A stretch of DNA of 64,000 nucleotides from Armatimonadota bacterium (GTDB taxonomy: Bacteria; Armatimonadota; UBA5829). A program made the position numbers and the translations under genes. Location: contig JBDKUO010000039.1 in assembly GCA_039679645.1 (NCBI GenBank), forward strand, positions 62,001 through 126,000. The letters run 5' to 3'. Of this stretch, positions 18,341 to 45,862 are shown in pieces (position 1 is the first letter of the stretch; every line of letters begins with the position of its first letter). The notes below the pieces were generated by a model. The model had not been told where the DNA came from and ran no database searches. It saw only the letters and a list, made by a program, of their open reading frames with translations.

Positions 18341-18369
18341 TTGACAAGCACCCAATCTTATGATATAAA
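18341..18369 (+). promoter_or_regulatory. promoter TTGACA-N17-TATAAA of PEP-CTERM gene
   Basis: TTGACA 18341-18346, spacer 17, TATAAA 18364-18369. Transcription would begin near 18376, giving a 75-nt leader ending in a strong GGGGAGG. Confidence 0.72.
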
Positions 18370-18450: not shown

Positions 18451-19020
18451 ATGAAACGAGTTTTGTTGTCGATCGTAATGCTTGTTCTTATTGTTGCGGC
18501 TGTCCCGGCATTTTCGTTTAGCGCTTCGGTCCTTTGCCAGGGCAACATCTGTGGAGGTATTGGGGTTCGGGATTACCAGTATGAAGTCACCGTGACTGAT
18601 GGACTGATCTACCAGTTGCATGTGGGCACTTGCGACCCGAACCTGCAGGATTACTTCAACATTTTGATGCCTGCCGGCTGGAGTTTCAATATCTACAGCA
18701 TTATTGAGGATCATGCAGACACATTTACGCCTCATGGTCAGATATCGACTCCTACCGGGTCCTGCCAATGGTGCGCGGTATGGACCGACACGACCGGCCA
18801 GGGTGTGGCAAACGCGGTGTTCGGCTTTGACAATCCCAACAGCCCGCATGATGTCGGCTGGTTTATCAATTCCAGCGCTGCGGTTGAGAACTGGTCAATG
18901 CCTGTAGGTTTGGGCGATGGTCCGGTTCATGGTCCCACGGTCCCGGAGCCGTCCGGCCTGCTTGCATTGTTAAGCGGCCTTGGCGTTCTCAGTGGGGCCG
19001 TCGTTCGCATGAAGAAGTAA
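18451..19020 (+). CDS. PEP-CTERM sorting-domain protein
   Basis: 189 residues. Signal peptide about 1-24 (LLSIVMLVLIVAAVPAF), a small beta-rich middle with three or four cysteines (CQGNICGG, TGSCQWC), and a C-terminal tail with VPEP, a hydrophobic stretch and a final RMKK. Such tails are recognised by exosortases, which cut and anchor or release the protein at the envelope or in the exopolysaccharide matrix. No exosortase is in the window. ATG 18451 is preceded by GGGAGGGGAGG; an upstream in-frame GTG has none. A second PEP-CTERM gene lies at 45347. Confidence 0.85.
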   Translation: MKRVLLSIVMLVLIVAAVPAFSFSASVLCQGNICGGIGVRDYQYEVTVTDGLIYQLHVGTCDPNLQDYFNILMPAGWSFNIYSIIEDHADTFTPHGQISTPTGSCQWCAVWTDTTGQGVANAVFGFDNPNSPHDVGWFINSSAAVENWSMPVGLGDGPVHGPTVPEPSGLLALLSGLGVLSGAVVRMKK

Positions 19021-41634: not shown

Positions 41635-44600
41635 TCAGTAAACCACGATATCGTCCTGTTCCCTCGGCAAAATCGCCCGGCATGTCGCACCGGAGATCAG
41701 CTCACATGAGACAATTCCGGTCACTGTCACATACTTGCCCAATGCAGGTTCCGATAACGAACCTGAAACGACTCGGATGCTAGTGCCGGACCGGCTATTG
41801 ATATAGAAATATGTGGATGTCGTGGATGTAACCTTGCCCCATGTGGTCGCCAGCAACCCGATATTGTTAGGTCCGTATGCGCCGGTGATCCCCGGTGTTT
41901 GGGCGTTAAGAGCCGTGCCGCCCAGGAAATCGCCTCTTATCCCGAGGGGAGTGGGCGGATCATCCGCAATGCCCATCGGATATAGTTCGGTGCAGTTGAT
42001 CTGGCGTTCACCATCCGATATCGATATAGGACCAATAACATGCACCAGGTTATCGCGTGTAACTGATGCATTAGATACAACCTTGATGCCGCTTATTCTA
42101 TCAAGGTCCTCGATGTAGAAGTAACCCGAAAAGACCGCAGTCACGACCTTGCCTGATAGTCCGACCACAGTACCGGCAGACCGGCACTTCGCCTCTGCGA
42201 CTGTTCCTACTTCCTGTGTCGGCTGATCGTGCAGAGTAACGGCGCATGCGCAGTCCGAGTAGTTGTAAAGTCGTGAATATGTCATCAAACCCTGGCTGCC
42301 TGTGTAGAATATTTTCGGAGATAACTGCGGCACAAGGTTGGAAACGAGGGCAATCTTTGGTGACGATGACACTATACCGCCGGCATCGACTGTCGTGTAA
42401 TATATATCGGAGTTTGCTGAATCGGTTGAGCGGTAGTCTTCCCATACGACTCTGTAGACGGATCCGTCCCAGCATGCGCTCGGGCTGGACTTTGGCTTTG
42501 TGCCGCTGTCGATACATAAACCGGATGCATCGAGCAGCGAACCCGCCGTGGAGACGCGGCACCCCGAAATCCTGGTTGAGTCCGACCAAGTGACGAAGTA
42601 GTTTCCTCCGCCGTAGCATACACTCGGCGTAGTTTCACTGGTAGTAACCTGCGGCATGGCGATCCCGCCGGCATCCTGCACAGTCCCTGATGAGGTCACG
42701 CGCGCGCCGTATATTCGAGCCGAGGAGCGGTAGTCCTCCCACACCACAAAATAATTTGTTCCGTTTGATGCCGCCTGTGGTTTTAGCTGGTTGCCCGTGG
42801 CTGTGCTGATTGTCGCCGCAGCAGTGACCGCACCGCTCGATGAGACCACTGCGCCGTATATATCCGTATAGTAATTCGGCGAGACGGCCGATCTATAGTC
42901 TTCCCATGCCACAAGGAAGCTGCTCCCGTTTGACGCGGCGCATGGGTTTACCTGATCTTCGGCAGCCGTAGAGATTGACAACGGAGATATGCTTAATTTA
43001 TTAAGGCCGGAATCAAGAAACCACCCGCGTATGTCCCAATCGGTGGTCGAAAATGTTTCATTGCCCGACCATACCACCAGGTATCTACTCCCATTCCAGG
43101 CTATAGACGGTTCAACCTGTTCGCCTAAATAATTTGAAGTGATATTTACCGGTTCATCACAGAGCGGCTCGCCGTCATGGGAAATTCTTGCTGCCATGAT
43201 GTCGCTGCTTCCGTTTACTGTCTGCGACCACACGACGGCGTATTCGCTGCCGTTATCGGCAACGGAATAGTCATTTTCATCATCGAGCGCCATAGATGTC
43301 GTGACTCCGGCGGCATTTTGCACTGATCCGCTGTTTGTGACGAGTGTGGTCAAGGCATCCGAATCGGTTACACTGAAACTGCTCCAACCGGCAACAAATG
43401 CGCTGTTCGCGCCGGCCACACACCCGCACGTCGCGCCCGCCATGCCTGTGGATATCGCTATGCCCGACGTGTCGAGTACCGTGCCGCTGGTATTGAGCCT
43501 GGCTCCGCGCATTGTCCTGTCCGCGCCCTTTGCCCGCCATGCCGCCAGCAGCCTGCTGCCGTTGTACTCAATGCAGGGCATCTCCTCATCGTCGGTCTGT
43601 GTGGATATTGCGATGCCTCCTTTGTCTAAAACGGAAGCTGTGGAACTGATCCTTGCCCCGTAGACATCGGATTCAGACGAGTTTCTGTAATCTTCCCACA
43701 CGACCATGCATGTAGTGCCCATGGAACAGATACGAGGGTTCATCTGCGCGCCCGGCGCTCCGATCGTGCCCGACGATGTGCATGAGACTAAAATGTCACC
43801 GGTCAGGCGGACACCCAGCCTGGACACCCTGCAGCCGTATATATCCGTGTCGCTTGTAGTGTAATTTCTATAATCACTCCACACGACTATATAATTGGTC
43901 CCGTTGTATGCCACATCCGGCATTTCGTCATTATTGGTGGTAGTGGAGATTCCGTATCTCTTGCTGATTGTGCTGTCCGAATTGACTTTGCAGCCGTACA
44001 CATCCAGCGAAGTGCTGATCGTATCTTGCCAGACGACCAGCCAACTGCTCATATCCGACGCGACTTTCGGATAGTATTGACTTGCGGTCGATCCCGACAG
44101 GAGTATGCCCTGAGGGTCGAGCACTTCGCCGTTAGGCCGGACTCTGCAGCCGTATATGTGTTGCAGCGAGGAACGCTTATCTGCCCAGACCACAAGATAT
44201 TCTGTCCCGTTCCAGGCGACATCCGGTGCAAGCTGTTTGCCCGATGACGTGGATATCGGTATGCCGAGCACATCGAGGATTTCGCCGGCCGAACTGATCC
44301 TGCAGCCGAATATATCAGAATCGCCCGAACTGCGCGTATCCGACCAGACCGCCAGATAACCATTAGAGCCTGCCGCGATACTTACGGAGTCCTGATTGCC
44401 CGGCGCAGCGCCGTATGTCGGGCATACAAGTGTTTCTGAGCCAACCACAGGATCGACCTGGATTGGAAATTTTGCACAAGCCACGAAACTGCATGGGATG
44501 CTTATGATTAGACGCCGCCCGCTTATTTTTGGAAGACACTCGAATTTCTTGCCTGCGCTGTCGATTACCGTGACTTTGCCGTATGTAAGGACCACGCGGC

Positions 44601-45015
44601 CACTGCCGTCGGTAAAGATAATCCCAAATGGAGAGGTCCGAGGAGTGTGTGGAGAATATATCTTGCCTTCTATTACAATATCACCCATGCGGGCTGGCGG
44701 TTTATTGATAACCCATGTCTGCTCCACGCCTTTATCCAAGGCGCTGTAGCTTTCGGATATGACGTCGCCATAGTAACAGCAGATTGCGTCATTCGCTGTT
44801 TTTACCTCGGGAGCGCGGTTGAATGTAATTCGCTTTTCGCCTAACTGAAGGCAATCGAGCTTATAGCCGAAATCGCTCGTGTGAGATGATTTGCAGAAGT
44901 ATTGAAATTTATTGCCTGAAAACTCGGCTCTATAGCCGGTATGCCTGAGTGGTTCATTTGCCTGTGCCTGAATGCATAAACAGATAATAGCGGGAAGTAA
45001 GGCTAATCGTAACAT
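41635..45015 (-). CDS. giant secreted protein of tandem VVW-type repeats with shared C-terminal module
   Basis: 1126 residues. Signal peptide 1-19 (ending IQAQA). A non-repetitive N-terminal part to about 190 precedes roughly 14 repeats of 50-60 residues with consensus VVW-D-R---SDIYG-R+---G--L---GI-IST and a P-VA-NG-NYLVVW stretch, resembling the long beta-propeller-like repeat proteins of myxobacteria. The last 220 residues form two OB-like halves (FYIEDLDRISGIKV; NNIGLLATTWGKV) matching the 6158 protein. ATG 45015 is chosen; AGGAGG is 11 nt upstream. A possible promoter TTGAGC-N16-TACAAT lies in the shared gap. Surface or matrix protein by inference. Confidence 0.82.
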   Translation of the reverse strand: MLRLALLPAIICLCIQAQANEPLRHTGYRAEFSGNKFQYFCKSSHTSDFGYKLDCLQLGEKRITFNRAPEVKTANDAICCYYGDVISESYSALDKGVEQTWVINKPPARMGDIVIEGKIYSPHTPRTSPFGIIFTDGSGRVVLTYGKVTVIDSAGKKFECLPKISGRRLIISIPCSFVACAKFPIQVDPVVGSETLVCPTYGAAPGNQDSVSIAAGSNGYLAVWSDTRSSGDSDIFGCRISSAGEILDVLGIPISTSSGKQLAPDVAWNGTEYLVVWADKRSSLQHIYGCRVRPNGEVLDPQGILLSGSTASQYYPKVASDMSSWLVVWQDTISTSLDVYGCKVNSDSTISKRYGISTTTNNDEMPDVAYNGTNYIVVWSDYRNYTTSDTDIYGCRVSRLGVRLTGDILVSCTSSGTIGAPGAQMNPRICSMGTTCMVVWEDYRNSSESDVYGARISSTASVLDKGGIAISTQTDDEEMPCIEYNGSRLLAAWRAKGADRTMRGARLNTSGTVLDTSGIAISTGMAGATCGCVAGANSAFVAGWSSFSVTDSDALTTLVTNSGSVQNAAGVTTSMALDDENDYSVADNGSEYAVVWSQTVNGSSDIMAARISHDGEPLCDEPVNITSNYLGEQVEPSIAWNGSRYLVVWSGNETFSTTDWDIRGWFLDSGLNKLSISPLSISTAAEDQVNPCAASNGSSFLVAWEDYRSAVSPNYYTDIYGAVVSSSGAVTAAATISTATGNQLKPQAASNGTNYFVVWEDYRSSARIYGARVTSSGTVQDAGGIAMPQVTTSETTPSVCYGGGNYFVTWSDSTRISGCRVSTAGSLLDASGLCIDSGTKPKSSPSACWDGSVYRVVWEDYRSTDSANSDIYYTTVDAGGIVSSSPKIALVSNLVPQLSPKIFYTGSQGLMTYSRLYNYSDCACAVTLHDQPTQEVGTVAEAKCRSAGTVVGLSGKVVTAVFSGYFYIEDLDRISGIKVVSNASVTRDNLVHVIGPISISDGERQINCTELYPMGIADDPPTPLGIRGDFLGGTALNAQTPGITGAYGPNNIGLLATTWGKVTSTTSTYFYINSRSGTSIRVVSGSLSEPALGKYVTVTGIVSCELISGATCRAILPREQDDIVVY

Positions 45016-45346
45016 GTGTTGGTTGTCCTCCTTTGCTGTTGGGCTTACAGGCGCGCGACATTGCGCCCGGCTGCCTGTAATCATATCGAAGTATACCCGT
45101 CTGGCTGCCGGGAAAACCCGAGCTATGAATAATTGTATTAATGTAAGAAATAAGCTCAACAATTATTGCGCATGAGTCTGTATTAAATGACGTTAATTAT
45201 GCCAGCTCAGGCGATATATGGCACGTATCTTGCACGATACAGGGCGTGTGAGTAGGATGTATGACAGGTGCATTCGCTTATTGATGGGCCAGCACAAAAT
45301 CGTTTGAATCCCTGACAGCTCAGCAGCTAAAGGAGGGCGAAGTCTG
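45016..45346. other. divergent intergenic region with opposite promoter types
   Basis: Holds the sigma-54-type element for the right-hand gene (45219-45234) and, on the minus strand, TTGAGC-N16-TACAAT for the large repeat protein. The 45347 leader after the predicted start is about 100 nt. No structure or gene was recognised beyond these. Confidence 0.55.
45219..45234 (+). promoter_or_regulatory. sigma-54 type -24/-12 promoter
   Basis: TGGCACG-N4-TTGCA, an exact match to the core -24/-12 pattern, with invariant GG at 45220-45221 and GC at 45232-45233. The transcript would begin about 45246. It points at the PEP-CTERM gene at 45347. Confidence 0.72.
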
Positions 45347-45862
45347 ATGCGAGCGTTAATAATCGCCGCGATACTGATTGTCTGCTGTACCCCGATGATG
45401 TGCCTGCCAATTGGCGCGCAGCAATATAGCGCTCTTGTTCTTGGACAGCCTGTCGATGTCGGCGACCCCAGCGTATGGGCCTATACATTGACAAACTCAA
45501 GCACAAGCCTTAGCTATACCGCGTGGCTCTTGGCAATTGAAGTAGACGAATCCACGGATGTTCTCAATGTATCCTCGCCATCGGGATGGATATGTGACAC
45601 CACGGTGCCGCACTTCATCAGTTGGATGTATTTGACGGACGAGCTTTCTGCCGGCGATACCGAGACCGGTTTTCAAGCCAGGTTCAGTAATGCGCCTGCT
45701 TATCAGTCGTGGACGGTGATGTTCAACAATACGGATAACCCGGGAGAAAGCCCGAGTGAGTCTGGTTCTGTGGATACCGCAGTGCCTGAACCGGCAAGCG
45801 TGATAGCGCTTATTGTGGGGGTCATATCCCTTGCGGGCGCAAAAATGCGAAGGCGAGTCTAA
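45347..45862 (+). CDS. PEP-CTERM sorting-domain protein, sigma-54 promoter upstream
   Basis: 171 residues. Signal peptide about 1-25. Beta-rich middle with WAYTLTNSSTSLSYTAWLL, then a C-terminal AVPEPAS, a hydrophobic stretch and a final RRRV, the exosortase recognition pattern. Preceded by GGAGGG 9 nt before ATG 45347. The promoter pattern suggests expression by RpoN and a cognate activator (PrsR-like in other PEP-CTERM systems; inference). Likely a small envelope or matrix protein. A hairpin follows the stop at once. Confidence 0.85.
   Translation: MRALIIAAILIVCCTPMMCLPIGAQQYSALVLGQPVDVGDPSVWAYTLTNSSTSLSYTAWLLAIEVDESTDVLNVSSPSGWICDTTVPHFISWMYLTDELSAGDTETGFQARFSNAPAYQSWTVMFNNTDNPGESPSESGSVDTAVPEPASVIALIVGVISLAGAKMRRRV

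Follow-up and report, generated by a model that had tools for sequence, protein, structure and literature searches.

A probable sigma-54 promoter before a PEP-CTERM gene of an Armatimonadota genome and a predicted regulon of PEP-CTERM genes and small RNAs

A -24/-12 element upstream of a PEP-CTERM gene in an Armatimonadota genome probably functions as a sigma-54 promoter and forms part of a conserved regulon, in which the sigma factor RpoN-A and an enhancer-independent activator (activator A) would direct the transcription of PEP-CTERM genes and small RNAs. The element lies in the window, i.e., the whole 64-kb stretch of DNA that was analysed, which is contained in a 3.41-Mb genome of 69 contigs and 99.7% completeness (G000). 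One regulator of this genome has its closest named relative, with 90% identity, in Armatimonadetes bacterium UBA5829. Genome comparison showed a predicted regulon that in G000 comprises about 10 of the 36 PEP-CTERM genes together with terminator-ended small RNAs of about 100 nt, and that is present in genomes with rpoN and activators and absent from those without. The regulon offers a clean, testable promoter set in an uncultured phylum and reveals a small-RNA family that is covered by no Rfam model at the gathering threshold.

The promoter element and its gene

The consensus TGGCACGNNNNTTGCW has a single exact match in the whole window (Table 1). Its GG and GC dinucleotides are correctly spaced, and 112 nt separate the end of the TGGCACG-N4-TTGCA element from the ATG at 45347. 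The first-pass annotation had reported an exact sigma-54 core in the right orientation before a PEP-CTERM gene, and both the element and the gene were confirmed. Using a PWM trained on other genomes, the element scored 25.0 of 29.1. With +1 inferred at 12 nt after the -12 GC, the predicted leader contains the Shine-Dalgarno sequence GGAGGG at 45332-45337. The encoded protein scored 17.8 bits against NCBIfam TIGR02595 (above the cut-off of 16) and 16.4 against Pfam PF07589 (below the cut-off of 20.7), and its N-terminus was judged by eye to be signal-peptide-like.

Orthologues of the gene in four other genomes (G016, G017, G010 and G005) are 79 to 41% identical and all stand behind the element. 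The element is near-invariant across these five species from three genera, while the rest of the intergenic DNA has diverged. The leader blocks TGTGACAG and TTATTGAT are kept in the five species, and the block CTCAGGCG immediately 5' of the -24 part is conserved in most orthologues.

The other PEP-CTERM gene of the window, at 18451, has no -24/-12 element and scored 16.7 against TIGR02595, above the cut-off of 16. The TTGACA-N17-TATAAA promoter described before it in the first-pass annotation was found at 18341. The proposal that the two genes belong to different regulons is in agreement with the genome-wide distribution given below, by which the gene at 18451 is predicted to be one of about 26 PEP-CTERM genes outside the sigma-54 set.

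Table 1. Coordinates of the promoter, its gene and the associated loci (window positions where no contig or locus is given)
Feature	Location	Strand	Description
Sigma-54 -24/-12 promoter element TGGCACG-TATC-TTGCA	45219-45234	+	Exact core; TGGCACGTATCTTGCA
Predicted 5' untranslated leader	45245-45346	+	About 102 nt; from sigma-54 promoter geometry
PEP-CTERM protein gene, predicted exosortase substrate	45347-45862	+	171 aa; TIGR02595
PEP-CTERM sorting signal VPEPASVIALIVGVISLAGAKMRRRV	45782-45859	+	C-terminal end of the 45347-45862 ORF
Intergenic region	45016-45346	.	Common to the 45347 gene and the divergent gene 41635-45015 (minus strand)
Sigma-70-type promoter TTGACA-N17-TATAAA	18341-18369	+	Before the second PEP-CTERM gene, 18451-19020
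RpoN-A gene	G000:C43:2834		
Activator A	L093:8695-9918		Receiver and AAA+ with GSFTGA; no DNA-binding domain
Histidine kinase beside activator A	C5, L093:5012-8290		Four GAF domains and a PAS domain (G000)
Activator B	C16:9074-10447 (L088:9074-10447)		Receiver, AAA+, Fis-type HTH
Small-RNA copy of G000	C13:2647-2762 (L016:1525-1638; L094 near 2647)		TTGCC replaces TTGCA

Enrichment of the element within the genome

Seven exact sites were found in G000, all ending in TTGCA, and six of them precede PEP-CTERM ORFs at distances from tens to about 110 nt. When up to one mismatch was allowed, the forward pattern gave 39 matches and the reversed pattern 28, indicating that one-mismatch sites alone are near background; exact sites are above it by the order-wide count given below. 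One-mismatch sites were counted as evidence only where a PEP-CTERM gene or the small RNA follows.

A profile of PEP-CTERM tails detected about 35 PEP-CTERM genes in G000. The best upstream sites of 36 such genes were distributed bimodally: six were exact, three had one mismatch, one had two, and 26 had three or more. Sites with at most one mismatch thus precede 9 of the 36 genes, compared with about 0.1-0.2% of random 340-nt intervals (the computed background of 0.13% is a slight underestimate, as the tiling split the window's own site). This is far above chance, as expected if further PEP-CTERM genes of the genome carry the element. When 463 kb were scanned with a PWM trained only on other genomes, the eleven best matches included the promoters of nine PEP-CTERM genes and that of a small RNA; this ranking is illustrative because the scanned set was partly chosen for containing sites. 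Two exosortase genes (PF09721 with DUF3485) are present in G000, away from the window.

A gene for a CAP-domain secreted protein was observed behind the element in three loci (L008, L261 and L287, with the domain call made on L287); the element is exact in two of them and has one mismatch in G000. Another locus of note encodes a 2147-aa exported beta-helix protein behind a one-mismatch element (L080:1117-7560); after it comes a PEP-CTERM gene whose element has two mismatches. In L007, L273 and L283, an exact element stands directly before a short ORF with a basic product (MIKVRIRVNRA../MIKVNIRV..), and the ORF has a strong Shine-Dalgarno sequence.

Distribution across the order

Among 19 genomes of the same order, 75 exact sites were found, compared with 6 matches to reversed-pattern controls. 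A PEP-CTERM ORF is directly downstream in 44 of the 75, and at several further sites the downstream ORF is lost at a contig end or carries a variant of the tail, e.g., VPDAPS. Exported proteins with PEP-CTERM-like tails that have PDAP or PNAP for PEP were also seen behind exact elements (L258 and L262).

The four genomes with no exact site are the only ones without Sigma54_DBD and without a PF00158 (Sigma54_activat) activator at E<=1e-30, and every one of the 15 genomes with both has at least one exact site. Together with the near-invariance among orthologues, this co-absence bears out the sigma-54 promoter originally proposed for the window. All genomes are drafts from uncultured organisms, so the absences are provisional. 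The rpoN-less genome G011 keeps eight PEP-CTERM genes. The seven proteins recovered from it match PEP-CTERM proteins of G000 essentially via the C-terminal tail only, suggesting that PEP-CTERM genes without sigma-54 exist, but not those of the regulon. Membership of the predicted regulon tracks orthology: of the regulon proteins of other genomes, 26 have a homologue in G000 (E<1e-8), and each of these maps to a G000 gene preceded by a site with no more than one mismatch.

Sigma factors and activators

The search for rpoN that had been suggested for the genome returned two genes, and G000 has only two bona fide sigma-54 activators. Trees of RpoN and of the activators across the order revealed two orthologous pairs, A and B. 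Pair A, consisting of RpoN-A and an NtrC-type response regulator, was found in all 15 rpoN-positive genomes. Activator A stops after the AAA lid, has no HTH, and keeps GSFTGA in 15 of 15 genomes. The histidine kinase is encoded directly upstream of it in at least 10 of the 15 and was not seen in the examined flank of five.

In three genomes (L093:17107-17295, L238 and L244), a sigma-54-like element accompanies a small ORF (MVKCFWCGS..) of zinc-ribbon-like type; the ORF has no Pfam match, and in G000 it is close to the kinase/activator A locus. In both RpoN paralogues (L092:2834-4261 and L088:17641-19056), region I is immediately followed by a zinc-ribbon-like CxxC..CxxC insert, which is conserved across the order.

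Pair B, i.e., RpoN-B and activator B, was found in 13 of the 15 rpoN-positive genomes, usually on one contig, and its locus in G000 adjoins cheB, fliM, cheR and cheA. In the family of the window, activator B has GAFTHA, GSFTHA or GAFTNA for GAFTGA where the motif is readable; its relatives in other families have GAFTGA intact. Pair B is absent from G001 and G003 (92% and 95% complete), although both genomes have exact sites before PEP-CTERM genes; G001 also encodes another, divergent activator (C259). Since the regulon occurs in these two genomes without pair B, pair A appears to be sufficient for it. RpoN-B could read the same -24/-12 element as well.

No upstream k-mer or dyad exceeded shuffles in 27 non-redundant promoters, k-mer and dyad counts being the sole basis of this result. 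The absence of a shared upstream motif is consistent with activation without DNA binding; the promoters may instead have an upstream site that is weak, variable or defined by DNA shape, or a DNA-binding partner protein may be involved. Several 8-mers (CGGTGCAC and others) were considered as a shared site and rejected, as they came from orthologue groups and were gone after reduction to 27 clusters.

Proposed activation and alternatives

By analogy, enhancer-independent, FlgR-like activation by pair A is most likely. The RpoN-A holoenzyme would form a closed complex on the -24/-12 element, and the GAFx4-PAS histidine kinase would phosphorylate the adjacent activator A. Activator A would then remodel the closed complex from solution with no specific enhancer, like Helicobacter FlgR, so that exosortase-sorted surface proteins and the CU-rich small RNA would be expressed in coordination. 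The cue may be a cytoplasmic small molecule or redox, as the GAF and PAS domains of the kinase suggest.

Enhancer-independent activation has an experimental precedent in FlgR (PMC9696931), and a signal or DNA-binding domain is missing from about 4% of activators (PMC3162934). Activator A shares with the type Ic activators FlgR of Helicobacter and CtcC of Chlamydia the NtrC-type receiver and AAA+ domains and the missing HTH (PMC3162934, PMC9696931), as well as the small number of activators per genome; here it is usually encoded beside its own kinase. In contrast to these systems, activator A is predicted to act on PEP-CTERM genes and small RNAs rather than on flagella, and a second RpoN/activator pair coexists. 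The fuller reading is that soluble activator A serves an enhancer-less regulon of surface proteins and an undescribed CU-rich small-RNA family with an independently evolved Qrr-like logic, with pair B, altered in GAFTGA, set apart for chemotaxis and flagella. We give this combination an even chance.

Another explanation accepts the sigma-54 promoter and assigns it to activator B, which would act through upstream sites in the manner of PrsR. Activator B is the only bona fide activator of G000 with a DNA-binding domain, and it has the higher score with the PrsR model (429 bits, and 368 bits for activator A). However, it is missing from the two genomes that keep the regulon, is encoded together with an RpoN of its own among flagellar and chemotaxis genes, and has an altered GAFTGA throughout the window's family where readable. 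No shared upstream site was found in the k-mer and dyad counts, and its score is under the PrsR cut-off (TIGR02915, 502.6). Control by activator B is therefore unlikely. That the match at 45219 arose by chance and another promoter drives the gene is the least probable explanation of all; one-mismatch consensus matches are near background in G000, as it would expect, but the match is exact, is conserved in orthologues, belongs to a set enriched before PEP-CTERM genes, and is of a kind absent where rpoN is absent.

The first-pass annotation had proposed control by PrsK/PrsR, and an acquired or inherited form of this Proteobacterial regulon (Haft et al. 2006) would account for the same class of target genes and for an element like Haft's motif 2 (PMC1569441). 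As described there, the Prs regulon consists of the sigma-54 motif 2, a motif 1 ending in TTTACA, PrsK, PrsR and PrsT (PMC1569441). Both bona fide activators scored below the PrsR cut-off, and the AtoC and NtrC models outscored the PrsR model on them. The best PrsK score (TIGR02916, cut-off 300) was 97 bits in the genome-wide search; the kinase next to activator A reached 104.6. Motif 1, expected about 63 nt upstream, was found in 2 of 49 upstream regions and in 4 of 47 far controls. With these three defining features lacking and the best candidate activator devoid of a DNA-binding domain, we rejected the PrsK/PrsR assignment, which we regard as very improbable; from the initial interpretation, the sigma-54 promoter, rpoN and the enrichment stand. 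Motif 2 is present before the same kind of genes, and the system is, judged from these scores, a different one.

Relation to the Prs regulon

As in the Prs regulon, the -24/-12 element is close upstream of many, not all, PEP-CTERM genes, and the genome has exosortase. The differences are the Armatimonadota host, the lack of any protein over the PrsK and PrsR cut-offs and of the TTTACA motif, a predicted activator without a DNA-binding domain, and small RNAs that use the same promoter. Of the species discussed by Haft et al., none but Proteobacteria had the Prs motif (PMC1569441), and pepA of Aquincola is RpoN1-dependent, experimental proof that such promoters can be real (PMC9850573). Previous descriptions of PEP-CTERM gene control by sigma-54 are confined to Proteobacteria, and this control looks to be wired differently here. 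Its occurrence in Armatimonadota with different regulators suggests that the coupling arose more than once or predates PrsK/PrsR. In the open-access literature, where prior reports may be missed, we found no paper on rpoN and no relevant paper on PEP-CTERM in Armatimonadota.

A predicted small-RNA family behind the element

The least expected result is that the same sigma-54 element is predicted to drive a CU-rich small-RNA family as well. Behind many of the other exact sites, at a distance of about 11 nt, comes the conserved non-coding sequence CATCTTTTTCTCCTTCCTT..AGTGTTGTGG and then a GC-rich hairpin and a T-run. The predicted small RNA is about 100 nt long, CU-rich and terminator-ended, and has an anti-Shine-Dalgarno stretch that could repress other mRNAs. 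Two base pairs of its terminator stem have undergone compensatory changes. Relatives of the G000 copy were found in L286, L259, L233, L247, L243, L228, L231 and L234-L236, with up to three tandem copies (L286) and often before pfkA-like or rhomboid genes.

A model of the small RNA built without the promoter detected additional copies across 28 genomes of the class. In most of the new copies that could be checked, the model start is preceded at 22-28 nt by a -24/-12 element (0-2 mismatches), and the element-bearing ones include copies in other families of the class. Strong copies were absent from the rpoN-less genomes. In Rfam, the family has no match at the gathering score (best, RF02278 with 35.1 bits, cut-off 50); its CU-rich core resembles RF02278 and RF02837, in both cases only below threshold.

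Qrr small RNAs sometimes occur in several copies and end in an intrinsic terminator, and the predicted RNA resembles them in both respects, whereas it has no Rfam match to Qrr. It is also, like Qrr, a short, putatively regulatory RNA directly behind a sigma-54 promoter; the Qrr RNAs of Vibrio are under sigma-54 and LuxO (PMC10162802).

A second possible RNA class, with a -24/-12-like element and a GC hairpin, was observed in L018 (G000:C15:18452) and L281 (G017:C21), and its sequence is unlike that of the main small-RNA family.
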